A stretch of 64,000 nt of DNA, taken from positions 12,110,945 to 12,174,944 of the forward strand of contig NC_134015.1 of the NCBI RefSeq assembly GCF_040712315.1, written 5' to 3'. This document shows positions 927-61,140 of the stretch, piece after piece. The notes under the pieces are model-generated. The model saw nothing but the letters and a program-made list of their open reading frames with translations, did no database searches and was not told the origin of the DNA. The stretch is from Castanea sativa (Eukaryota > Streptophyta > Magnoliopsida > Fagales > Fagaceae). Every line of letters begins with the position of its first letter. The stretch's first letter is position 1. The position numbers and the translations under genes were made by a program.

Positions 927-2391
927 TCTTTTAATTTATTAATGATTCAATTCTAGAACATATAAATAATTTATATTGAAGTTGTTCAATGTAGGTTTTA
1001 CTGTTGAACGTGTGATGTAGTCTTTTTTTTTAGGGTGTGATGTAGACTTTATTGGTTGGACCAAAAAGTTTGCCAGAATGTATTGGTGTGTTATGGATAA
1101 GGTTGAGACTCATATATAGACTCATAGTAGCTTTGTCATGGGGCTTTGGAACTAAGACAAGGCTATTATATAGTCCAAGAAATTATATGAAGTTTTATTA
1201 GTGAATCGTGTAGTTTTGTAGACAAATTAATGCATTTTGTACTCATCCTTGCTCATCTTTAAGGAGTGAAAAACATATAGTAGGATCTCTAACTCATATC
1301 TAAGGAGCAAAAAACAAACACCTCTTCTTCTGAAACTATGATAAATTACCAATGGTATCAAATAGGAGATCTTGAGTTTGATAACCTTATATGTAGGACC
1401 TAAGATACAGAAATAAAATTAGGACATTCACCCTGTAAATAACAACTCTTTAAGCCATGTAGTATGTATTTTAATTTCAAATTTTTAATTAAAAATGCTT
1501 AAGAGGGAACCAACTCAATGAGACCCATATTAAAAAATGGCTAAGTAGTACAAGTAGAGGCCAACCCATCATATTAGGTGGGCTTAGGTGCTAACACCAT
1601 CCCAAATTTTTACCCATTCTTACTTAAACGATTGGTCTTCACATTCCCCCACCCCTCAAGCACACTGCTTTCTATTTTCCTTGTTTATCTGCAACACTTT
1701 CCCTTTTGCCAACAACAACCCAACTATATATCAATTTAATGTTTTGTGTTTGTACCTCCATAATGAAATAACACCATCTATAAGAATAGCCAAACCCAAA
1801 ACCCTATAGAGGCTCTCTCACACTAGAACTTAACTCTTAATAGTGGCCCTCTCACAAACATGAAGGCCCACACCATGGCATTAACACCTTCCTTAAGGAT
1901 GAGTGAACCCAAATCCCCACTTAGGCCCCTTGCAAGACCAAAAGTATCTCCAAATAAAATATGTATCTCACAGTCACAGATATGTGAACTTCACAAGTAT
2001 AGACCCCACATCTTTGTGTGAGACCTACTCTATGAAACGAGCTATAGCCCAAGGGATACTTTCACCTTTACAAGACTAAATTATTTATTATAACTTTTTT
2101 CAATGGTTTATTTTACTTAAAAATAAAAAGTTGAATAAAGGTAAAATTATCCCTAGACAAGATAAAGTTCAAAGAAAAAAACAACTATACTTTTTCTATT
2201 AGGATGAAATAAAGAGATATTTACAGGCAAGTCAACCAGTTAATGGTTTAGTCTTCAGACCTAAAAAAAATTGTTAATAACAAGCTCCTTTCAGGTAAGT
2301 AGACCTATTAGTGGTTCAAACCTTTTAAAACTTTCAGTTGTTGTGAGCAAAATCAGCATTTTTGTACATCTTGTGGACCTAGAAAATGTTC

Positions 2392-14023
<11,632 letters not shown>

Positions 14024-14156
14024 TCTCTTTTTTCTCTCTCTGAGTCTCTATAAAAATTCAAGAGCAATTTTATGTCACGCGGCCCGTGTGTGTGTCACAA
14101 TAAATAGGTGAAAGATTTTACGCGTTTGTAAGTTACGGATTCTGATTTCGGATTGT

Positions 14157-14170
14157 TATATATATATATA
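14157..14170 (-). promoter_or_regulatory. Candidate TATA box of copine copy A
   Basis: A run of alternating TA lies about 135 bp upstream of the copy A ATG. It reads as a TATA-like element on the minus strand and is followed by a purine-rich leader. The similar position of a TA run in copy B supports it, but a simple TA repeat can look like this by chance. Confidence 0.4.
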
Positions 14171-14229
14171 GGAGAGAGTAACTGACTTTAGTTTTTGATT
14201 GGAAACTTGGAAATTTAAAGGGAATTTCA

Positions 14230-14915
14230 GGAAAAGGAGTTTTGGTTTTGTAGTTGAATGTATACAAGTAATAGTAATAGTGGTAGAGTATTCAATTAAT
14301 TCGCAGGGTCTTATTTCGCGCGCTGAAATCAACAACGCGTGTTTTTAAAAATAGAAATTATATGAAGCTGGGTCTCTTTTTTCCTTAATTTCTATTTATG
14401 GGAGAAGCGTATGCGTATGATGTTGGAATTTGAAATCGGGGAAGAGTTTTCCTCAAGAACAAAAAACAAGAATTTACAGGAAAGGCGAGAGATATAAATA
14501 CTAATATAAACAGAGGGGAGAAGAAAACCTTTTTTTTTTTTTTAATATAAAAGGAAAAGAAAATGAAGAAGAGAAATTGCTAAGAAAGAACTTAGTAAAA
14601 TCCATTAAAGTATTCTTGAAAGACCAAGAGGGATATTACATGTGTGCGTGTGCGTGGCACATGCTGATGATACTCATATCAATCTCATCACTCACCTCGT
14701 GCATCATTTTGATTGGTAAAAAATATTGAGCAGTTCTAATCTTGAACGGAATATAAGTTTGAATATCCTTTTCTTACTTTGTTTAAGTAAGATGATAAAA
14801 TTGGTTTCGGATATATTTTGTCAAAAATAATTAATTATTTTGATGGTTTTTTATATTTCAAATAAAAGTGGTGTCAAAATTTTTTTTAAATGATTTGTTA
14901 ACAACTGTTTTGAGA
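14230..14915. other. Spacer upstream of copine copy A
   Basis: Sequence beyond the copy A promoter, with a T-run near 14530 and no open frame of interest. It may hold distal promoter elements, but nothing specific can be pointed to. Confidence 0.4.
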
Positions 14916-15548
14916 AGCATTCGCATCAGTCTCAACAAACTAGTTTAAGATTAAAAATATAATTAAAACCCCACAAAAAACCCACACATCAATCTCATTA
15001 AACTACTCTCTCTCATGAATTGATCAACATCAATTGGTGGTTGGCTATGGTGGATGTGGTGGTTGGTGACAATGGCTGGGTTTTCATCAACGTTGATGGG
15101 TGGTTGCATGAGGTTTTGGGGTTTTGTAGGGTGGATGTTGGGAAGTAGTTGTTGGGTTTGTTCTATTTCCTTCTCTCATCTCTCTCATGCAGAGATTGAC
15201 CATGGTGGTTTGTGGTAGCTTGGGTTTGATATGATTTGTTCATTAATGGTGGTGGATGAGTTTCAACGGTGGCCAATGATTCCTAGGTTTAGTGCTTGAA
15301 GGTGGGTTTCGCCATTTCGCTGTTTCTCTTGTGATTGGGTGGGTAGTGCTCGGAGGTGCGAGCTTGAAGTTGGCTTTGACTAATGGTGGGTTTTGCTTTG
15401 GTGGTGTTGGATGTGTGGTTGGTGGGGGCAAAAAAAAAGTAGAAAAATAAATTTTGAGGCCGATATATGTGTCTATTTATTAAAATAGTAAAAGTGGAGC
15501 TTTTGGGGTTAGTTTAGTTAAAATTCTGGAGAGACTAGTGTGAATGCT
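14916..15548. mobile_element. Candidate MITE or small DNA transposon with G/T-rich core
   Basis: The ends are imperfect inverted repeats (left AGCATTCGCATCAGTCTC, right reverse complement AGCATTCACACTAGTCTC). The core (15030-15430) is rich in 'ggtggttggtgg'-like blocks. The proline-rich minus-strand frame there is a by-product of this composition. I could not see a clear target duplication. Confidence 0.5.
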
Positions 15549-16890
15549 TTAAAGATATCCGTTAATGGAACATATTATTTTTATAGGAAAAAAATTAATG
15601 TTAAGATACTATAAAAATTTGTTTATTTAAAATATATTTATTATATTGTTAGTGTCCTATACTATTTATTATTTTTTTTTTTTTTGAATAAGTAAAGGGG
15701 TGTCTAGAATAGCAGTATATATAGGGATGATAATGGAGATAGGGAAGGTGCCAGGACCCAAGTGTAGACGGATGGATGCCTCCCCAATTTTTTTTTTAAA
15801 TTATTAAAAAGTATATATATTTTCTAATGCATTTTGGAATCAATAATTTTAATTTTGTTTGATGCTTCAAATAAAAGTTTTCAAATGTCTTTTCTTATTA
15901 TACATTTTCTAATAAATTTAATAGTCATATTTTAGTGTCAAAAGTCTTATAATTTAACAACATAACCTAGTCTCTTTTATTAAAAGAACCATGATTTAAA
16001 TTTCTCCTTGTGATCTTATAACTATTTAATTATTCCAAAAGAAAAGTCTTAGCAAGATAGCATTAGAGGAATTTGGACCAGAAGGGCCAGGTCTTTTTAT
16101 TCTTTTCTTTGTTTTTTTTAAAGGGAAACAGAGCCAAGTCAGTCTTCTTCTTCTTTTTATTTTTGTTTAAGCCAAGCCAGTTGAGTGAACAAGTAATACA
16201 ACAATTAAAGTAAACATATTTTTCCCTTTTCTCTTCTTTGAAGTCATTCTATATCATTAACTCCAGCAACTACGTACGACGAGTCGAGATCTATTTTTCA
16301 ATATAATAGCGTGTTATATTACACATTCCAAAGTCTTTGATACAAAAAATAACAACCAACGTTATTAGTTTTAAAGTCTGAAGTTGATTGCTAAGTTTAT
16401 TGATTGTTCATAAATTCTAATAGTTGAGAAGAAGCAAGAAGAGAAAAGTGTCAATTCTTCTTATAGTTGGGTTTAATTTGAGGGTTTCATCGTAAAGTTA
16501 GAACAAAAATTTTTTATGAAAAAATTTGGCATAGCTATGATGCAGGCTTTGTTAAATTCATAAGAAATGCACGGCTATTTAGCAAGGAATTGCAGAGAGC
16601 TACGTAGAAGTAAAGGCAACGGCAAAGAAAGTTGTGACGAATTTTGTTGATCGAGGCAACTAAGACATAGCACTTTAATAAATGCAGAGAAAGAATTGTG
16701 GAACGCATTTCAGGGAGGTATGTGAAGGTGAAGCAAAATTATTGTACTCTTCAAAAATAAAATAACATATATTTACCGGAAAAAAAAAATAACAAATATT
16801 TATAATTAGATAAATGGGAGAGATAGGGAATAAAAATAGATAGTTTTTGGGTAGCAATGGATATTTCAGCAACCCATTTGTTGTGAAGTG
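15549..16890. other. Flank of unit A shared with 54920-56140
   Basis: AT-rich, gene-free sequence. From about 15870 it is alignable in blocks with 54920-55150 and 55830-56140 and so marks the right side of the segmental duplication. There is no coding frame. Confidence 0.55.
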
Positions 16891-19613: not shown

Positions 19614-19945
19614 ATTCACTACAATAAAGCTGACTTTTTTCAAGGGTCAAAATCCTTGAAAAATGTATTAAAAAATCTTGAGAAAAATTATTTTAAGAGT
19701 CAAATCGACCATGGATAACCTTCGAAACTTATACCGTCAAAAACAAAATTTTGAAGGCCTTCGTGACCCTCAAAACAAGTGCCCTAATATTATTTTAAGG
19801 GTCTTTTGACCCTCAAAATAAGATTGTCTTATAAAATAAATAATTAAATAAAAAAAAAAAAAAAAAACCACAATCATGCACAAAAACCACATACTACAAC
19901 CAAATACATCAAGTCCAATGTCCTAATTGTCTAACTAGTATATTT

Positions 19946-20012
19946 CCTGTATACTTGGGTGGCTCATTTTTTCGGATTTATATAATCTTATTACTTATAA
20001 CAAAAAAAATAA
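19946..20012 (+). repeat. LINE-like 3' tail fragment inside the CACTA element
   Basis: It reads 'tgtatacttgggtggctc', then 'tataatcttattacttat', then an A-run, the pattern seen at 3' ends of plant L1 copies. It is short and without a checked target duplication. Confidence 0.35.
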
Positions 20013-20210
20013 TTCTCCTTTGCACATACAAAGATCTTATTCCTAGGGCATCACAAAAACCGCTAGTTCATATAGAGCCATCAAACTGGCCGGACTAGCA
20101 ACTAGAGCTCTATGCATTATATGGATAGATATCAATCAACCCAGATCATTATAAGACAAAAATTAACATCTGAAAATAAGGATATTGTAAAGGTACTGAA
20201 AGAGTACGAC

Positions 20211-20859
20211 CTTGGAACTGAATTCTTCTGTCGAAAGCCAAGAACCCATTTTCAACAAGGCAGCCAAAGCAGGGGCAGCAGCTGAACCAAATTCAAGTGC
20301 AGAAGCTAATAATGGAACTAACTGTAGAAACAAGAAAATAAAAACATAAGCTGGCATTCAAAGACATTTCAAGTGGATATATAACATTAGAATTTCCATG
20401 TCACACCTTTTTCAGGACAATTGGACGAGGAAGCTGCTCTGCTAAATTTGGAAGCTTGCGGAAGAAGGTCTCCTTTTCAACACTGTCTTTTAAATTTAGA
20501 ATCTGCCTAAAATGTATCGTGTCCACCAGTTTATTTTGGAAATATTCTGCCAATCCATTGGTTGAAAAACTTTATAATAAGAGGAAAAAGAATGGCAGAG
20601 AAAAGAAAATCCATGAAGCAACATTATGCCTAAAACAGAAAAGCAAAGCTGAGAATAAGAATTCATAGCGAATTTCATCAAAATAGGTACACAACTTGAC
20701 ATAGCCACCACTCACAAGGCACATCATGTAGCAGGTTACCAAGACTAGAGTTTCTCCAAAATTATTAAATACAATCAAGTTTAAGAACTCACCACTATTT
20801 TCAATAAGCTTTGATGTATTCAACCTATGAGAAAGCCGCTGATAATCTGGAAGCAAAGA
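20211..20859 (-). pseudogene. SCY1-like pseudokinase (SCYL) fragment, three exons
   Basis: SCYL proteins are catalytically inactive kinases with HEAT repeats that act in Golgi/COPI and endosomal trafficking (family knowledge). Three consecutive exons are visible: 20793-20859 (SLLPDYQRLSHRLNTSKLIE), 20407-20546 (starts YFQNKLVDTIHF, includes FFRKLPNLAEQLPRPIVLKK) and 20211-20321 (LLASALEFGSAAAPALAALL, then KMGSWLSTEEFSSK). They join in one frame without stops, with intact GT-AG borders. They cover only the stretch after the pseudokinase domain and the start of the HEAT region; the kinase part and C-terminus are missing. The fragment sits inside the CACTA element, downstream of the UGE fragment on the same strand. 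Confidence 0.8.
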
Positions 20860-21910
20860 CTGTGAGGCAAGAAAACAGATGCAAATGAAAATTGAATCAA
20901 AGCAACCAACGCATGCATAAACAAAATAACACAACAATTAATATATTACTACAAAATAGAGGTAATGAAGGCGAAGGTTGGGTGGAGATAGTATAGCAAA
21001 GAGGCAGGGAAATAACTCATTGTAAGAACTCACAAAGCCCTACACAAAACCAATCCAAAAGGCCAAAAAAAATAAAAATAAAAATTACCCAATTCCTGAG
21101 CTTTACCCAATTCTGTTTAATCTAAAGTTGGATTAAAAATTTAAAAAAATCTTCAATGAGGGACACACCTTAAGTTGTCCTCAACCGGAAAAGAGTACTA
21201 AATCCAACGGAAAAGCCTGCATAAAAAAATATTTCAACGTTAGAGTTTCAATCTTGTTGAGGATCTATAGACTACTCCAATGTTTTGGGACTAAGGCTTT
21301 ATATCAACAGTCAAAATCTGTTTTACTATTGCTAACTCATATGACCTTAACAACTTTTGCTCAAGATGTACCAACAAATTGAAATTGGTCCATCTTATCA
21401 CTCACAGTGTGTTCAAGGTGACATTATGTTATCAAAAAAATTATTTTATCAATCAATAGCGAATCATATGCCTTCACTTGTCTCTATTGCGATCTCAATC
21501 TCCATCTTGCTTGTGAGTTGTGAGGAAGATAGATACCTACTGTTTTATCCATTTATCACTGTGGAGACTGTCATTTTGTTGCTGAACTTAAATGCATCAT
21601 CTTTCAGGCAACCTGATATATATAGAATCTTATTTTTATTTTTGAAAGACCCAAAATTTAAAACCATTACCTACTAGCTACTAGTGAAGATCTTTTTATT
21701 TCAGAATTGAAATCACCCTGAGACTTGAGTTGCATTGGATAAACACAGCTTGTTAATGCCATGTGTTTGTAAAATATGGCTAAAACAAGATTTTCATAGA
21801 AATCCCATGATAAAAGCATGAGTGTGTTAACTAAATGCCTAATAAACTGGTAACAGGTGACAGAAAATTCATTGACATACAAATTCGTATGCAAGGAAGA
21901 ATGATCGCCT
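20860..21910. other. CACTA interior between the two captured fragments
   Basis: I find no recognisable exon here. It probably includes captured intron sequence of SCYL and/or UGE and the junction between the two captures. The missing last exons of UGE are not in it. The 106-aa plus-strand frame at 21357-21677 has no protein-like character. Confidence 0.45.
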
Positions 21911-23992
21911 ATATCCTCTTTAGTAAAAAGCTTCCAAAGAGCAGCAATGTGACCATCAGCTAAGTCCATGACATGGATGTAGTCTCGGACCTGTTTAACA
22001 CAAAAACATTTGATATTTTGTAAGTGAAAAAAAATTTGTCAATTTAATTGAATTTTATGTAATGACAGAAAGTCAAATACTACTGCCATGGTTATAAAAG
22101 ATTATAAGTGGAATACAAAACTAGATATAGTCTGTGTCAAAAAGTCCATGAGATGGGACTAATGGATATTACTGAAACTAGGGAAATTCCTATCAACTAC
22201 TACTCAAAAATATTTACACAAAAAAGAACATACCGCACTACCATCCTTTGTGGGATAATCATGACCATACACATTAAGCTCAAGCAATCTGCCAATAGCC
22301 CACTTGCTGTATTTATGGCATGAGATTGATTGGGATGCCCTTTGGATCTTCACCAATTCTACCACTCTCATGAGCCCCAACAGGATTGAAGTAACTGAGT
22401 CATATAATTTTCCAATCTGGCTCTGCCTTCTGAATATCTCGAGCAATTTCTTCAAGGAAAAGCTATAAGTATAGAATATATTAAAAGTCAGGAAAGAATA
22501 GAAACTGCACTCCTATGAACGCAAGAAACAGCAAGTGGGATTATCCAACTTCAAAGACGGATCCTATGTGTGGTATGCCCAAAATAAACATTACTAAGCA
22601 CCCAGTGATACATACCTTGGTCCTTCCATAAGGATACATAGCTTTCAATTCGAAATCCTCAACACAAGGCATTTTTTCAGGTTGACCATAAACTGTTGCA
22701 GAAGATGAGAAAACCATCTATTTGGCCACAGGATAACATTACTTGTGTCAGTAGTGGACAGAGCATGCCAACATGTGATGTAATCAATAAAAAAAATGGT
22801 TCACATTCTAAGACTTAACAATTCTCTGTTAAAGATTCAACTGGAACTTGAATGCTATAACTACTTTGGACAAACAAATAATTAGACATTTTTTATGATT
22901 CAATAGTTACAATGGTGGGTGATATACAAGGCCCGTGACGTCAAAAGAATTAGACATTGAACATAAAAACTTCAATTTAGCAGTAAGACACCAAAAACAA
23001 CAATATTGCTTCCACAAATATACAGCTACATATACAAATCATAGTTTATGCAATTATGATTTGAAAAGAAATATACTGGAATCAAAGATTTTTCAAAATC
23101 AAATATGACTAAAATGAACGTTTAATGCATAACTCAACAGCCAAAAATTCTTTAAGACATAGATTATTGTTGATTCACTTCCAAATCATTTGTTACAAGA
23201 GCAAGATTCAAAAACAAAATCAAACGAATTCAAGAAATTAAATCGTGGACCTTTTTGCAATCATATTTTGCCATAACCTTATACAGATTAATAGTGGCAA
23301 TCAAATTGTTATCAAAATAACGGCGAGGGTTTGCAACACTCTCCCCAACAGCTTTTAGGCCAGCAAAATGGATCAAAGCATCAAATCTGTCTCAAACAAA
23401 GCCAATGGCACAAAATTAAGCCAATTCTGAAAAAGTCTATGATTCTGTTTGTTTCCGCAGAAAATAGTTAACAGTAAAACTGAATGAAAACAGTGGAAAA
23501 TCATAGCACTGCTAATGTAATTGAAATTAAACATACTGTGTTTGAGAAAAGAGCTTCTCCAAGTCCTTATTCCTAAGATCACCCTGCAATCAAACCAACA
23601 CGTAATGTAACCAAAAGCCAAAAACCTCAAAACGCCACCATTTGGTTGCCAAGAAACTGTTAAAAAAAAAATTTTAAATACAAATCTCCCGAAAATTAAA
23701 ACCAGCATTGCTCAAGATATTCAAGAATCTCTAATTTCTAACCTTCTTTTCCCTCATTTTCACGGTAACCAAACAAAACAGAAATTTACACACACACACA
23801 CACTACCAGGTGGAATTCAAGATTCTGAGAACGCTTAGGGCCACGAACCCTATCAACAGCTTCGGCGACGGAATTATCAAGATTGTCGAAGATCGAAACC
23901 CTAAAGCCTTCATTGAGAAGCTGAACCACAGTGTGAGAGCCAATGAAACCGGCTCCTTCAGTAACCAGAATCGTCTTTTCCGAGAAAGTCAT
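21911..23992 (-). pseudogene. UGE: UDP-glucose 4-epimerase (UGE) fragment, exons 1-6, disabled
   Basis: The parent enzyme interconverts UDP-glucose and UDP-galactose in the cytosol. Exons: 23807-23992 (ATG at 23992; [20 protein letters not shown]), 23537-23583 (GDLRNKDLEKLFSQTQ), 23251-23386 ([16 protein letters not shown]), 22616-22717 ([10 protein letters not shown], and YPYGRTK with the YxxxK pair), 22234-22462 and about 21911-21990 ([18 protein letters not shown]). Damage: the first glycine of the Rossmann motif is Glu (TEGAGFIG). Exon 5 is 229 bp, one base over the 228 needed. Exon 5 also has TGA after DWKII and TAA after INLMP, then shifts frame before [14 protein letters not shown]. 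The last exons, which should start after KEDIG, are absent, and the expected GT donor there is GC. A TTG six bases upstream of the ATG is not needed as a start. Lies within the CACTA element. Confidence 0.92.
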
Positions 23993-24147
23993 TTTCAATT
24001 CGAACTATAAAGAACAGGTAGTTCTGATAATATGTTCAAACCTCGTACATCCAACCCATACTTCAGATTCCAAAGGACAGGTATGTACAGGGGGGTGCCA
24101 CCTTCTGGCCAGGGTAGTCCCAAGGCACCCTGATCCGAAAAAAAAAA

Positions 24148-24168
24148 TATATATATATATATATATAA
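24148..24168. repeat. Short TA microsatellite
   Basis: About ten TA units after an A-run, inside the CACTA element between the UGE fragment and the nested hAT fragment. Confidence 0.8.
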
Positions 24169-24577
24169 TTTAAAATTTTATATTTACCTACCTTTGAAAA
24201 AAAATTTCGAAACACTTTAAATTTTTTTTATATCAATAAAATTAAATTTTGATCTATAATTTAAGAAACTTAACAATATATTAGAGTTTTTCAAGTAAAA
24301 AGAACTAAATAGTAGTTTTAGTTAATTAAGTGAATAAACTTAAAAAGTTACTTAATTTTTATATAACATCAATTAATTCATTATATATATATATATAATA
24401 AACTTTTTATTTTTATAATTATAATTAAACATGTAATTGTCCATTTTAAGGAAATTTGATTAAATTTACACGAAAAATGTCACTAAATATTATGTTTTTA
24501 CATTTTTCTATCATATTATTAGTAATAAACTTATTATATTTTTATTCATATAATTTAAAAGTTTATTAATTATATTA

Positions 24578-24678
24578 TTTATGACGACACCGGTTCGACC
24601 ATTGGTCGGATCTCAGTCCAACCAAAAAACTAGTAACTAGTCCATTTTCTGGTTCTTTCACTGGTTTATAAAACCATG
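24578..24678 (-). mobile_element. hAT-like element end nested in the CACTA element
   Basis: On the minus strand it reads CATGGTTTTATAAACC and about 75 bp later 'gtcgaaccggtgtcgtcata'. This parallels the left end of the element at 30070 (CATGGTTTTAAAAATCGG, then 'gattgaaccggtgacgtcat'). The opposite end is not visible, so only a fragment is called. Confidence 0.5.
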
Positions 24679-25362
24679 GAAAAAACCCAAAAAAAAAAAA
24701 AAAAAAAAACTTGAACAAAAATCTGGAAAAAAAAAATTATAATAAAATCACTAACAAGGTCCAAACCAAATGCCAATAAAAAAGCCCAGTACAAGATCAA
24801 TCTCATTCCAAACTAAGACTATCACTACTACAACACCAACAAGATTATGTTTTTAATTCAACAAATATTAAAAAAAAAATCATCAGTGCCTTGCGGATTC
24901 ACAAGTCATATTAAACAATTTAAACTAAAACTAAATCAAACCTAAAGGCTAAAAGGAAATAAGATACTCACTTACTCTCCTTAACCATCGTCGTCCATCC
25001 CTGTTCAGCAACACTAACAACAACCACAACTGAACTCCAAAAGCTTTATATTGTAAAATTTTATGTATTTGCGTATTTTTTTATTATTGTTGTTGTTGTT
25101 GTCAATATATACATTTTTCTTTTTTATTAGATTGTGTAATTTATACTTCTTAAGAAACACCCTAGAAAAAATTCCTAGAGCTGCTACTAGGTATGTAATT
25201 CCATTTCCAAAGTATCCAAAACCTAGCCCCAAATTATATTATTGGCGAGGAAGAGGAATATCAATGGAGAGAATGAGAGAGAGAAAACAAGAGAGAATAC
25301 CAAAAATTCTTTGCAAAGTTCTACTAGGTAATTTCCAAATTCAATTTTTTTTCTCAGGAAAC

Positions 25363-25400
<38 letters not shown>

Positions 25401-25872
25401 GTAATGGAACAAAGGGGCGGAGGAGAAGGCTCTGACTATCAACGGCTAGTCGTCGTCGAAGATATGATCACCGACCACAGCGCCTCAACCTACCGTCGGA
25501 GATGAGATGAGCTCCAAGAGAGAGAATTTTATAAGAGTTCACATTTACTTTGGAGGAAACAAAATGATAATGGGTTTTCTAAGAGAGTGAGCAAAGACTT
25601 TATTTGAAAATTGGTTTTTTGAATTTTGAGTTCGTGAAAGAGAGTCTTTATTCCGAGGGTTGTGTTAGAATTCCGTTGAAGAATGTAAAAATTTGAAGGA
25701 AACAATTACGCGGGATTTTAGTGTTTTAGTTTATTCCAAGGGTTTTAATGACCATTGTAAGAAGATTAGTCAGATTTTAATTAGCGCGCCAGTTTTTAGC
25801 ATTTGTTTCAACCATTTTCAGTAAACCCTTAGAAAAAAAGGGTTGAAACAATTCTTTTTTTTTTTTGTAGTG
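24679..25872. other. Right interior and subterminal part of the CACTA element
   Basis: It contains an A-run, an (AG)n microsatellite at 25367-25398, a GC-richer patch at 25400-25510 whose origin I cannot name, and the right subterminal motifs. There is no convincing exon. Confidence 0.45.
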
Positions 25873-25875
25873 ATT

Positions 25876-33218: not shown

Positions 33219-44512
<11,294 letters not shown>

Positions 44513-44662
44513 TCTCTCTTTCTTTCTTTCTTTCTCTCTGAAACGGATTGAAAGAAATCTTATTACGCGTTTGGATGTAACAGACAGACGTAACAGATAC
44601 AACGTGTTTTGATGAAGTTTCTCCGACCCAGATTGTAAGTTGTGGATTATTATGTAATCTCG

Positions 44663-44675
44663 ATATATATATATA
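44663..44675 (-). promoter_or_regulatory. Candidate TATA box of copine copy B
   Basis: ATATATATATATA lies about 150 bp upstream of the copy B ATG, at the position matching the TA run of copy A. The leader between it and the ATG ends in GAAA repeats (44513-44537 seen from the minus strand). The flanking sequence is still alignable with copy A, so the proximal promoter was duplicated with the gene. Confidence 0.4.
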
Positions 44676-44784
44676 GACACAGAGTATAGGGAAGACGAAC
44701 TGTCTCTCTCTTGTTTTGGTTAGAAACTTTGGAGGGAGTTTCGTTGCAAAAGCCAAAGACTTGACACGGTTGTGAAACTTTGAA

Positions 44785-51569: not shown

Positions 51570-51738
51570 TTCCCCCCTTCCCCTTTTTTAAGTTGTATCT
51601 AAATCCTATTTTTTATGAGTTCATTTGTCAGACAATAGTGAATGCCCTTTTGGTTTTGGGGCTTTTATGTAAAAGATTTTACCCCTTGGGTTTTTATCCA
51701 ATGTTTTTATTCGTTGCTTGCACCTGTGGTTTTATTTT

Positions 51739-52558
51739 ATTGGTTGATCGTGAATATACCCCCGTCACATGTGTATCATCAATATTTTACTCCATCCGTT
51801 CGTCCTGTGGGACTTATAATATTTTGCAAACCAAGTACCCGTAGGTAGGACTTGGTAGAAATTTAACAACTAAGGCATCCGTCCATCCACCTCGTAGGTA
51901 GGATTTGGTGAAATTTAAAGAACAGGTACTTGTCCGTTGGTAGGACTTGGCAAAATTTTAAAGGTTAGGTACTCGTTCGTCCACCCTGCAAGTAGGACTT
52001 AGTAAGATTTCTAAGACCAGGTACCCGTCGGTATCCTTGGTCGTCTGTCCACCCTGTAGGTAGGACTTAATAAAATTTCCAAGACTAGGTACTCGTCAGT
52101 ATCCGTGGTCGTCCGTCTACCCCATAGGTAGGACTTAGGAGAATTTTTATTGGTTGATCGTGAATATACCCCCGTCACATGTGTATCATCAATATTTTAC
52201 TCCATCCGTTCATCCTGTGGGACTTATAATATTTTGCAAACCAAGTACCCGTAGGTAGGACTTGGTAGAAATTTAACAACTAAGGCATCCGTCCATCCAC
52301 CTCGTAGGTAGGATTTGGTGAAATTTAAAGAACAGGTACTTGTCCGTTGGTAGGACTTGGCAAAATTTTAAAGGTTAGGTACTCGTTCGTCCACCCTGCA
52401 AGTAGGACTTAGTAAGATTTCTAAGACCAGGTACCCGTCGGTATCCTTGGTCGTCTGTCCACCCCGTAGGTAGGACTTAATAAAATTTTCAAGACTAGGT
52501 ACCTGTCAGTATCCGTGGTCATCCGTCCACCCCATAGGTAGGACTTAGGAGAATTTTT
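51739..52558. repeat. 410-bp direct tandem repeat with inner ~50-bp units
   Basis: 'tggttgatcgtgaatatacc' occurs at 51741 and 52151, and the 410 bp after each are nearly identical. Within each lie five or six shorter units of the form 'gtaggtaggacttggtaaaatt' with 'ggtactcgtc'. It lies between the accessory ORF and the integrase and creates the repetitive minus-strand frame near 52421-52675. Confidence 0.9.
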
Positions 52559-56773: not shown

Positions 56774-57495
56774 AAAGCCTTCCTAAGACATTTGGGAGGA
56801 CAGACAGACAGGACACACAGAACAGAGAGAAGGAAGAAGATATCTTGAGTTCAGAAACCCAGAAGCTCTGCCAGGATCAAACCTCAAAGCCTCCAAGAAT
56901 TTCAAGAACTTCAACCTCGAATACAAACAACATTCGAAGCAAAATCATCCAAACTACTCGTCCAGATCTCAAAGTTCACTAGAACCAAGCTCAAAAGCCT
57001 TCAGAAACCTCAACAAACCACAAATTGGTGAAGCTCTATGGATTCAAGCCTCCAAAGCCCTGAAGAATTTCTACCACAAACCTTGAAACACGAAGAACAC
57101 ACGAAAAACACGAAGAACACGAAGAACAAAGAATTTCTAACAAGCTCATAGTCAGAGATTCATTGTAATTCCGTTTCAAAGATCTTCGATCCATTCCTCA
57201 GCTAAATTGAAGAATATCTTATGTTCAAATCAAAATCACATTACCACAATTACAATCAATAAATCTTTCAAGGGGATCGAATCAGAGGATCACTCTTTTG
57301 TAATTACAGAGAATTGTACCACACATTTATCAATACAAATTTGTATTTGTGAAACTATTTTACTTGTTTGATTTATTTCGAACTAAGAAATTTAGTCGTC
57401 TACAAATTCTGGCACGCCCAGTGGGACATCTCTGCCTCTCATCTCATTCTTCTTCAAAGAAAAAAAAAGATTTCATCATCTTGCTACCAACTTCA

Positions 57496-59313
57496 ATGGC
57501 CTCTAGCAAGAACATTCAAGCTTCAACAATAGCTACTTCAATTAAACTTGGTACGGCTACCACCAACAGTTACATTGGAGTAATCAATTGTAGCCAACCT
57601 AAAGCTCACAATAAGCTTCAATCTCAATCAACCGAGGAAGCCAAGGTCCAGACAATCATCTCTTTAGACCCTCTTAAAAGAAACAAGGTCATCAACAAAG
57701 ACATCTCCATCTTGGAACACCTCAAGTATGGGGGCAAATCCCCTTCTTCCTTCATAAGAAGCTGGTCGCACGATTTCTCTCTCATCAAAGGGAACCCAAA
57801 AGATGAGATTTCACGTGCTCACTTCAATTCACTTCCTTCTCCATCATCTGTGGAAGTTGTGTCAGTCATGATGACTAACACCTCTACCATGGAAGAAAAG
57901 ATGGCTGAAATGGAACAAAGGGTCGTCCTTCTCACAAAAGCACTTGAAGATAAGGACCTCCAAATTGCAACTTTAATGAACAAACTCGAAGTACAAGATC
58001 TTGGTGAATCAAGCCATGGTCATAAATTCGCATCTGCGAAGGATGATGAAGGGAAAGAAATTAAAAACACTCCCCGACAGGAACAATCCACCTCAATGGC
58101 CTCAATATCTGTCCAACAACTGTAGGACATGATAACGAATACCATACGAGCACAATATGGAGGTTCTTCTACAAATTCTCTCTTATATTCAAAACCCTAT
58201 ACGAAGCGCATTGACAATATGAGAATGCCAAATGGGTATCAACCCCCTAAGTTCTTGCAATTTGATGGAAAGGGAAACCCTAAGCAACACATTGCTCACT
58301 TTGTAGAAACTTGCGAGAACACAGGGACTCAAGGAGGCCTCTTTGTAAAGCAGTTTGTTCGTTCACTAAAAAGGAATGCCTTTGATTGGTATACAGACTT
58401 AGAACCCAAGTCAATCGATAGTTGGGAACAACTTGAAAGGGAGTTCCTCAACCGGTTCTACAGCACACGCCGTACGGTAAGCATGATGGAGCTTACCAAT
58501 ACTAAGCAGTGGAAAGACGAGCCCGTTGTTGACTATATCAATCGATGGCGTTCTTTAAGTCTAGACTGTAAGGATAGACTTTCTGAAATATCTGCTGTAG
58601 AAATGTGCATCCAAGGCATGCACTGGGGACTTCTGTACATGCTGCAAGGGATAAAACCCCGAACATTAGAAGAATTGGCAACTCGTGCGCACAACATGGA
58701 ATTGAGTATCTCTTGCCATGAAAATACAAAACCTCCCATACCTGAGGAAAGCAGAAAGGAAGTAAAGATGAATGACAGAAATGCAAAAGGCAATCTCAAA
58801 GACCCAATAACTATTAACACTACCATAGTTAAGGTTCCAAGGGGAGGAGCAAAGACAAATGAAAAACAACTTGAAAGATGGCAAAAGAACGAAGTGCGTC
58901 GTCTGACCTTTAAGGAACGTGAGCAAAAATCATATCCGTTCCTCGATGAAGATGTGCCAAACATCTTAGAACAACTATTGCAATTACAGCTGGTTGAATT
59001 GCCAGAATGCAAGCGACCAGAAGACATAGGGAAAGTTGATGACCCTAACTACTGCAAATATCATCGCATCATTGGCCACCCAATTCAAAAATGCTTTGTC
59101 TTCAAAGAACAAATCATGAAGCTTGCCAAAGAAAACAAGATTGATCTAGACCTTGATGAAGTTGTCGGGTCAAACCATGTGACCATTGCTTGTGATGTAC
59201 TTCCAACTTTTTGGCAGGGGGCAAACACCAATAAGGCTTACAAATTGATTGACAATGAGGGTGTAAGGATCGGCCCCATCAATGGAAAGTTCCTCAAACG
59301 CTTCTATGCTTGA
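57496..59313 (+). pseudogene. Retrotransposon Gag with one in-frame TAG
   Basis: The frame starts MASSKNIQAS and would give 605 residues, but TAG stands at 58123-58125 (SVQQL, stop, DMI), one transition from CAG. Before it is a coiled-coil-like region (MEEKMAEMEQRVVLLTKALE). After it is the Retrotrans_gag domain (YQPPKFLQFDGKGNPKQHIA, FVRSLKRNAFDWYTDLEP, FLNRFYSTRRTVSMMELTNT). A CxxHx4Hx4C knuckle-like motif (CKYHRIIGHPIQKC) replaces a classical zinc knuckle. The rest is open, so this is a young element. Long minus-strand frames across 58533-59027 are shadows. Confidence 0.85.
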
Positions 59314-59447
59314 AAATCAAGAATTGCTCCTCGGTAAGAGCTTAAACTACCCACTACAGCACTACAAGGGTACATGATGTTTTCCCACTACCTTTGAAAG
59401 TGCACAAATAAAGAGAAATTAATCCCACTCTATGTCACCATTTGTGA

Positions 59448-60520: not shown

Positions 60521-61140
60521 AGTGCAGCTTCGATGTGAATGAAGTGTTGACGTAGCTTCATGGCAAAGATGAATGTTGGCATGGCTTCTGTGCAAATGGA
60601 GTGTTGACACGACTGCATGACAAAGATGGATGTCGGCACCACTTCAATATAGATGAACTGTTGGCCTAGCTTCGATGCAAATGAAATGTTGACGTAGCTT
60701 CATGGCAAAGATGAATGTTGGCATGGCTTCTGTGCAAATGGAGTGTTGACACGGCTGCATGACAAAGATGGATGTCGGCACGACTTCAATATAGATGAAC
60801 AGTTGGCCCAGCTTCGATGTGAATGAAGTGTTGACGTAGCTTCATGGCCAAGATGAATGTTGGCATGGCTTCGATGCGAATGAAGTGTTGACGTAGCTTC
60901 ATGGCAAAGATAAATGTTGGCCCAGCTTCAATGCGAATGAAGTGTTGACGTAGCTTCATGGCAAAGATGAATGTTGGCATGGCTTTTGTGCAAATGAAGT
61001 GTTGACGTAGCTTCATGGCAAAGATGAATGTTGGCATGGCTTTTGCGCAAATGAAGTGTTGACGTAGCTTCATGGCAAAGATGAATGTTGGCATGGCTTT
61101 TGTGCAAACGAAATATTGACGTAGCTTCATGGGCGATAGC
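60521..61140. repeat. 57-bp minisatellite
   Basis: About ten units of the form 'gacgtagcttcatggcaaag' plus 'atgaatgttggcatggcttc'. Since 57 is a multiple of three, the minus strand stays open and encodes a 19-residue repeat (MKLRQHFICTKAMPTFIFA). I consider it non-coding repeat of the retroelement. Confidence 0.85.

Follow-up and report, generated by a model that had tools for sequence, protein, structure and literature searches.

A probable Pack-CACTA transposon with DNA-level copies of parts of three unrelated genes in Castanea sativa

The 64,000-nucleotide stretch of Castanea sativa DNA analysed here (the window; C3:12110945-12174944 of a 716-Mb host assembly of 13 contigs) contains a non-autonomous CACTA element of 6256 bp at positions 19617-25872. 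The element starts with the octamer CACTACAA at 19617 on the plus strand and ends with its reverse complement at 25865-25872 on the minus strand. It is flanked by a target-site duplication of the trinucleotide ATT at 19614-19616 on the left and 25873-25875 on the right. Positions 19617-19925 (plus strand) form the left end of the CACTA family, with its terminal and subterminal sequence, and the right terminal region of the family, which ends in TTGTAGTG, spans 25186-25872. The motif AGGGT/ACCCT occurs four times in the left and four times in the right 250-bp end, compared with a mean of 0.41 per 250 bp, and AAGGGT/ACCCTT occurs two and three times in the two ends, compared with 0.13. Some of the longer subterminal motifs, such as GACCCTCAAAA, are confined to the left end. 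Terminal inverted repeats, a 3-bp duplication, and subterminal repeats at both ends are the attributes of the CACTA superfamily, and no copy of CACTACAA is left inside the element. An initial annotation of the window delimited one 6.26-kb unit by these termini, the ATT duplication, and the subterminal repeats, and this delimitation is upheld. The element is very probably a non-autonomous Pack-CACTA (En/Spm-type) transposon carrying DNA-level copies of parts of three unrelated host genes.

Positions 21774-24014 of the element contain a captured segment of a UGE gene on the minus strand. Its source is the UGE gene at locus L029 on contig C10, which has nine exons for residues 1-350 of P0001, all of them open. 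The segment forms one unbroken alignment with L029 of 2287 columns, in which 2087 of the 2218 ungapped positions are identical (94.1%). It runs from a breakpoint 22 bp upstream of the ATG, through exons 1-6 and introns 1-5, to a second breakpoint within intron 6, about 44 bp before exon 7. In comparison with L029, the copy contains two in-frame stops (TTA to TGA at codon 182 and TAC to TAA at codon 211), one inserted G that shifts the frame, and a GC in place of GT at the exon-6 donor, and it lacks 12 exon bases. Because of the two stops, the frameshift, and the changed donor, the captured UGE is a pseudogene that cannot encode the whole of UGE as it stands. The exons of the copy differ from L029 by 4.5%, and the non-exon positions by 6.7%. 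The pN/pS ratio of the copy to its parent is 0.34 (16 synonymous and 19 non-synonymous differences), which includes the constraint on the parent's own branch and is therefore no evidence for selection on the UGE copy.

The segment at 19926-21018, also on the minus strand, was captured from an SCYL (SCY1-like) gene. It aligns in one piece to L030 on C5 over 1126 columns, with 1027 of 1091 ungapped positions identical (94.1%), and it contains three exons (at about 20865-20770, 20550-20404, and 20324-20205) together with introns. In L030 and the adjoining L035, residues 76-477 of P0228 are encoded by stop-free exons in the correct order, and this exon series reaches further than the captured piece at either end; no exons for residues 1-75 or from 478 onward were found in the sequence fetched there. 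The captured SCYL differs from L030 by a 15-bp exon deletion. Divergence from the source gene is the same for the UGE piece and the SCYL piece, at 5.9%, which is consistent with the capture of both at about one time. The stretch at 19865-19925 also adjoins an SCYL fragment at L032 on C9, with 87% identity. In L032, a left-end-like piece lies beside SCYL, and the 15-bp deletion is absent; the locus resembles the Castanea dentata gene model P0135, with the first 36 residues identical and 47 of 49 in the next exon. Retroposed (processed) copies were considered as the origin of the cargo and rejected, since introns are retained over one UGE and one SCYL alignment. The description given in the initial annotation, of UGE exons 1-6 and three SCYL exons on the same strand, introns included and taken up as genomic DNA, thus agrees with unbroken alignments to L029 and L030 that also locate the capture breakpoints.

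A fragment of a third gene, encoding a DC1 (C1_2) domain, lies between the SCYL and UGE segments at about 21377-21779 on the plus strand. Several blocks of it align with a cluster on C12, at identities of about 88-94%, and it reads ESYAFTCLYCDLNLHLACEL and YHCGDCHFVAELKCIIFQ. L033 from C12 encodes a C1_2 (DC1) domain (3.1e-9), and by its similarity to the fragment may be the DC1 source or a paralogue. The window's own 20-residue stretch ESYAFTCLYCDLNLHLACEL has no Pfam match by itself, and the domain call rests on L033. The earlier claim of two gene sources within one element is correct for UGE and SCYL, but it understated the cargo by this third gene fragment. The 157-bp segment at 21092-21248 has at least 24 other matches in the genome. 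Five of these are located on the inner side of a listed family left end, at a distance of 6-8 kb, and the segment is therefore probably family-internal sequence. The 133-bp segment at 21248-21380 matches three places on C3 (at 13.20, 13.25, and 13.45 Mb) with 83-93% identity, the value at L034 being 93%, and no coding sequence was seen in it. The segment at 24015-25185 has no source assigned. Beside the UGE 5' breakpoint, positions 24027-24087 correspond to a 61-bp dispersed repeat (88-97% identity). At two of the joins, adjoining interior pieces share 4 and 6 bp; these overlaps may reflect microhomology or alignments that ran on by chance.

The pair of terminal octamers is by itself weak evidence for an element. 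The window is A+T-rich, and CACTACAA is not rare in it: six copies were counted, compared with 2.66 expected, and six or more were reached in 4 of 100 shuffles. Two inverted exact pairs of the octamer are possible in the window, and only the pair at 19617 and 25872 has matching 3-bp flanks; the other four octamers (with ends at 4842, 11390, and 53032, and a start at 59360) do not yield an exact pair whose flanks match. When one mismatch was permitted outside CACTA, three more pairs whose flanks match, separated by up to 20 kb, were obtained in the window, so that flank matching alone is no proof. Evidence from a family of sibling elements settles the matter, and a chance octamer pair was rejected as an explanation of the element.

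A search of the host genome with the first 200 bases of the element gave 133 candidates, 40 of which were scored, the window included. There are at least 39 other left-end matches, with identities of 84-89%. We took 10 kb at 20 of the 39 places. About 187 bp at the start of the element match all 20 of these siblings, most of which have the same left end. The right end TTGTAGTG together with a matching 3-bp duplication is present in nine of them (L010, L011, L012, L017, L018, L020, L021, L023, and L028), which are 5194 to 8406 bp long. A right end in L014 was dropped as false after alignment. The sibling L024 differs in the first base of its left end; its right end is at 8055, it is flanked by TAA on both sides, and it is 7.86 kb long. 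Its open reading frame (ORF) matches PF13960 (9.8e-53), which we take to be part of TNP2 proteins, and partially matches PF02992 with a value of 1.8e-4, below Pfam's cutoff. L024 thus indicates that the family has, or had, a form bearing a putative TNP2-type transposase. Only end pieces of the window element match L024, and no transposase was found in the window element, where the longest listed stop-to-stop ORF comprises 123 residues of UGE exon 6 and intron. The initial annotation had called for sibling copies sharing the termini and for an autonomous partner with TNP2. The siblings were found, which removes its concern that the termini might have no other copies; for the partner, the TNP2-type ORF of L024 was found by its PF13960 match, with the PF02992 part falling short.

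We also searched the host genome for places with UGE, SCYL, and DC1 pieces, for which only the best candidates were scored. The full SCYL-DC1-UGE composite (20780-21990) was matched by the window alone among the 40 scored of 77 candidates. The initial annotation had named UGE and SCYL standing adjacent in related genomes without CACTA ends as an observation that would speak against capture. No host place of this kind was found among the best candidates, and the sources lie on C10 and C5. L031 on C11 contains a UGE piece and a DC1 piece with the same UGE breakpoint as the window (position 1941 of L029); the 4.8 kb fetched there showed neither an SCYL match nor paired CACTA ends. L031 and C11:50168210-50170128 are partial UGE copies without exon 1, both of which stop at about window position 23795, just inside intron 1, and L031 has an insertion of about 0.9 kb. 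In the siblings L010, L011, L012, and L020, the stretch from UGE exon 1 to intron 2 is joined straight to the right end, and C3:25706931 is a fifth place that matches this stretch. A 3-bp deletion in exon 2 is common to the window and these four siblings and is absent from the parent L029 and from L031. That both the deletion and the neighbouring right end are shared would link the window element to the four siblings, and the deletion may also have recurred.

The cargo of the siblings differs. L012 is 97.4% identical to L011 over 3.8 kb, and a different block, which includes an alpha/beta-hydrolase fragment (PF00561, 9e-17), is swapped in at positions 783-1572 of L012. BLAST found no counterpart of the hydrolase-bearing block in L011 or L020, which are 97% identical to L012. 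An alpha/beta-hydrolase fragment at 8617-8970 (plus strand) of L012 is epoxide-hydrolase-like by reading. L021 contains an F-box gene fragment at 4570-5076 on the plus strand (PF12937, 1.4e-8). A 128-residue ORF of L011 matched no Pfam family and no solved structure. From the hydrolase fragment in L012 and the F-box fragment in L021, the family appears to have captured genes more than once.

Gene models that match the captured SCYL and UGE-SCYL pieces include those of Quercus, Castanea, and Lithocarpus. The models P0127 and P0342 from Quercus suber and P0334 from Lithocarpus litseifolius contain UGE exons followed by SCYL exons with the 15-bp deletion. P0127 and P0342 have sequence in common and probably represent one Q. 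suber locus; P0342 also includes a stretch that matches the minus strand of the window's DC1 region at 15 of 15 positions. The 15-bp deletion is also present in P0125 (Q. suber), which begins with UGE exon 6 in another frame, and in P0121 (Q. lobata). These chimeric models are gene predictions and differ in the exons used; the Q. suber and Lithocarpus predictions alone bear on the possible chimeric transcript raised in the initial annotation. We infer from the shared arrangement and deletion that the composite is older than the split of Quercus, Lithocarpus, and the genus of the host. The fused models in oak and stone-oak annotations indicate that transposons can be filed as UDP-glucose 4-epimerase genes.

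We infer an order and a mechanism of capture. The interior would first have been built from DNA copies of UGE from C10, SCYL from C5, and DC1 from the C12 cluster, with at least one further piece from C3. The assembled element would then have moved as one unit and left the 3-bp duplication behind, probably mobilized in trans by a TNP2-type transposase from related elements. The effect of the element is the reshuffling of exons and not UGE activity.

Several observations weigh against this scheme. The composite was found once in the host genome, so its own amplification has no support there. The left-end identity to the siblings is no higher than the range given above, and an exact right end with a matching duplication was not found within 10 kb in 11 of the 20 siblings, L024 among them. 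The PF02992 match of L024 is sub-threshold, the match of L033 to the DC1 piece is split into three blocks, so that L033 may be a paralogue and not the donor, and a small tree of the UGE piece places the window with the parent (support 0.85) and not with the siblings. The unlike repeat make-up of the two ends, with GACCCTCAAAA on the left only, could also be explained if two separate CACTA insertions or solo ends flanked an older cluster of UGE and SCYL pseudogenes. This is highly improbable, because ATT matches on both outer sides, nine of the 20 sampled siblings pair the same type of left end with their own right end and their own 3-bp duplication, and siblings of the L010 type hold the UGE piece between the same two types of end. 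An ordinary segmental duplication of the host that contained UGE and SCYL before transposons arrived would fit the UGE-like partial copies on C11 at 50.01 and 50.17 Mb, one of which has a DC1 piece. However, the two source genes lie on different contigs, UGE on C10 and SCYL on C5, no place joining them was found among the best candidates, and in L031 the UGE-DC1 part occurs elsewhere, with SCYL absent from the 4.8 kb fetched. We regard such a duplication as extremely unlikely. Capture of the three genes by a single CACTA element is the explanation that we prefer.

How that capture proceeded is less certain. We consider fusion of neighbouring elements slightly less likely than faulty DNA repair or template switching within the element, and we lean towards repair because of the local replacement in L012 and the lack of inner ends, evidence that does not decide between the two. 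A fusion model for Pack-CACTA elements has been described in the available parts of PMC8903248 and PMC13317346, and an inner element could have left behind the family-like 157-bp piece at 21092-21248. On the other hand, no internal CACTACAA is left, and the swapped block at 783-1572 that distinguishes the near-identical L012 and L011 looks like a local replacement; fusion is nevertheless a real possibility. The composite might also be a functional chimeric gene under selection in the oak and chestnut family, as the chimeric models in two other genera and the pN/pS of 0.34 between UGE copy and parent could suggest. Yet the window copy is damaged by two stops, a frameshift, and an altered exon-6 donor, the low pN/pS includes constraint on the parent branch, and the models are predictions with differing exons, which makes a selected gene very unlikely. 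We speculate that a UGE-SCYL fusion transcript has been produced from the transposon lineage since before the split of oak, stone oak, and the host, and that a better-preserved copy in Quercus or Lithocarpus gives a functional product or RNA, for instance small RNAs that act on the parental UGE or SCYL genes; we consider this improbable.

Autonomous CACTA elements of the En/Spm type have CACTA ends, a target-site duplication, and a TNP2-type transposase. The window element resembles them in its ends and duplication, and L024 in its TNP2-type transposase, whereas the window element itself shows no transposase. The excerpts available of the report on Tgm-Express1 of soybean (Zabala and Vodkin; PMC1947982) describe a 5.7-kb CACTA element with exons and introns of five unrelated genes, and chimeric transcripts that were detected by RT-PCR from the F3H gene holding the element. 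The window element is likewise a CACTA element with exons and introns of several unrelated genes. In contrast to Tgm-Express1 as portrayed in those excerpts, for which transcripts were seen, it is known from sequence alone, and its sources, its siblings, whose cargo differs in part, and a relative with a transposase have all been located in the same genome. According to the accessible portion of PMC8903248, Pack-TYPE elements of maize often hold more than one locus, Pack-CACTA elements most of all. As far as that portion goes, the element shares with the Pack-CACTA elements of maize and Arabidopsis a small target duplication, non-autonomy, and genic cargo from several loci, and its CACTACAA ends are shared with Arabidopsis Pack-CACTA (Catoni 2019, via PMC8903248). 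It differs from them, on the same portion, in belonging to another plant family and in a cargo of which one part is a continuous 2.2-kb gene copy spanning six exons. In the literature collection searched, there was no earlier report of UGE captured by a CACTA element or of a Pack-TYPE CACTA in Quercus, and among the best matches none was by title on CACTA or Pack-MULE gene capture in Castanea or Fagaceae. Multi-gene capture by CACTA elements is already established, and the element is a further, well-documented case. The value of the case lies in the completeness of the record, which comprises source genes, siblings, a transposase-bearing relative, and gene models across genera. How DNA transposons acquire gene pieces is still debated, and a single genome that contains the source genes, the siblings, the transposase relative, and a pair differing by one swapped block enables breakpoints and capture order to be read directly.

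The element is situated between the copies of a tandem duplication (window 1495-16540 and 32129-56044), the main blocks of which are 76-87% identical. Other sequence at 45-55 kb lengthens the second copy. Within the duplication, the ORFs at 13634-14047 and 44240-44719 resemble BONZAI-type copines. Rfam and tRNA scans of the window gave no match. Two long consecutive ORFs at 57304-59313 resemble an LTR-retrotransposon gag. A local repeat array is present at 60525-61132, one frame of which encodes MKLRQHFI-like repeats, and positions 51735-52558 form an adjacent direct repeat of 414 bp with 98% identity.

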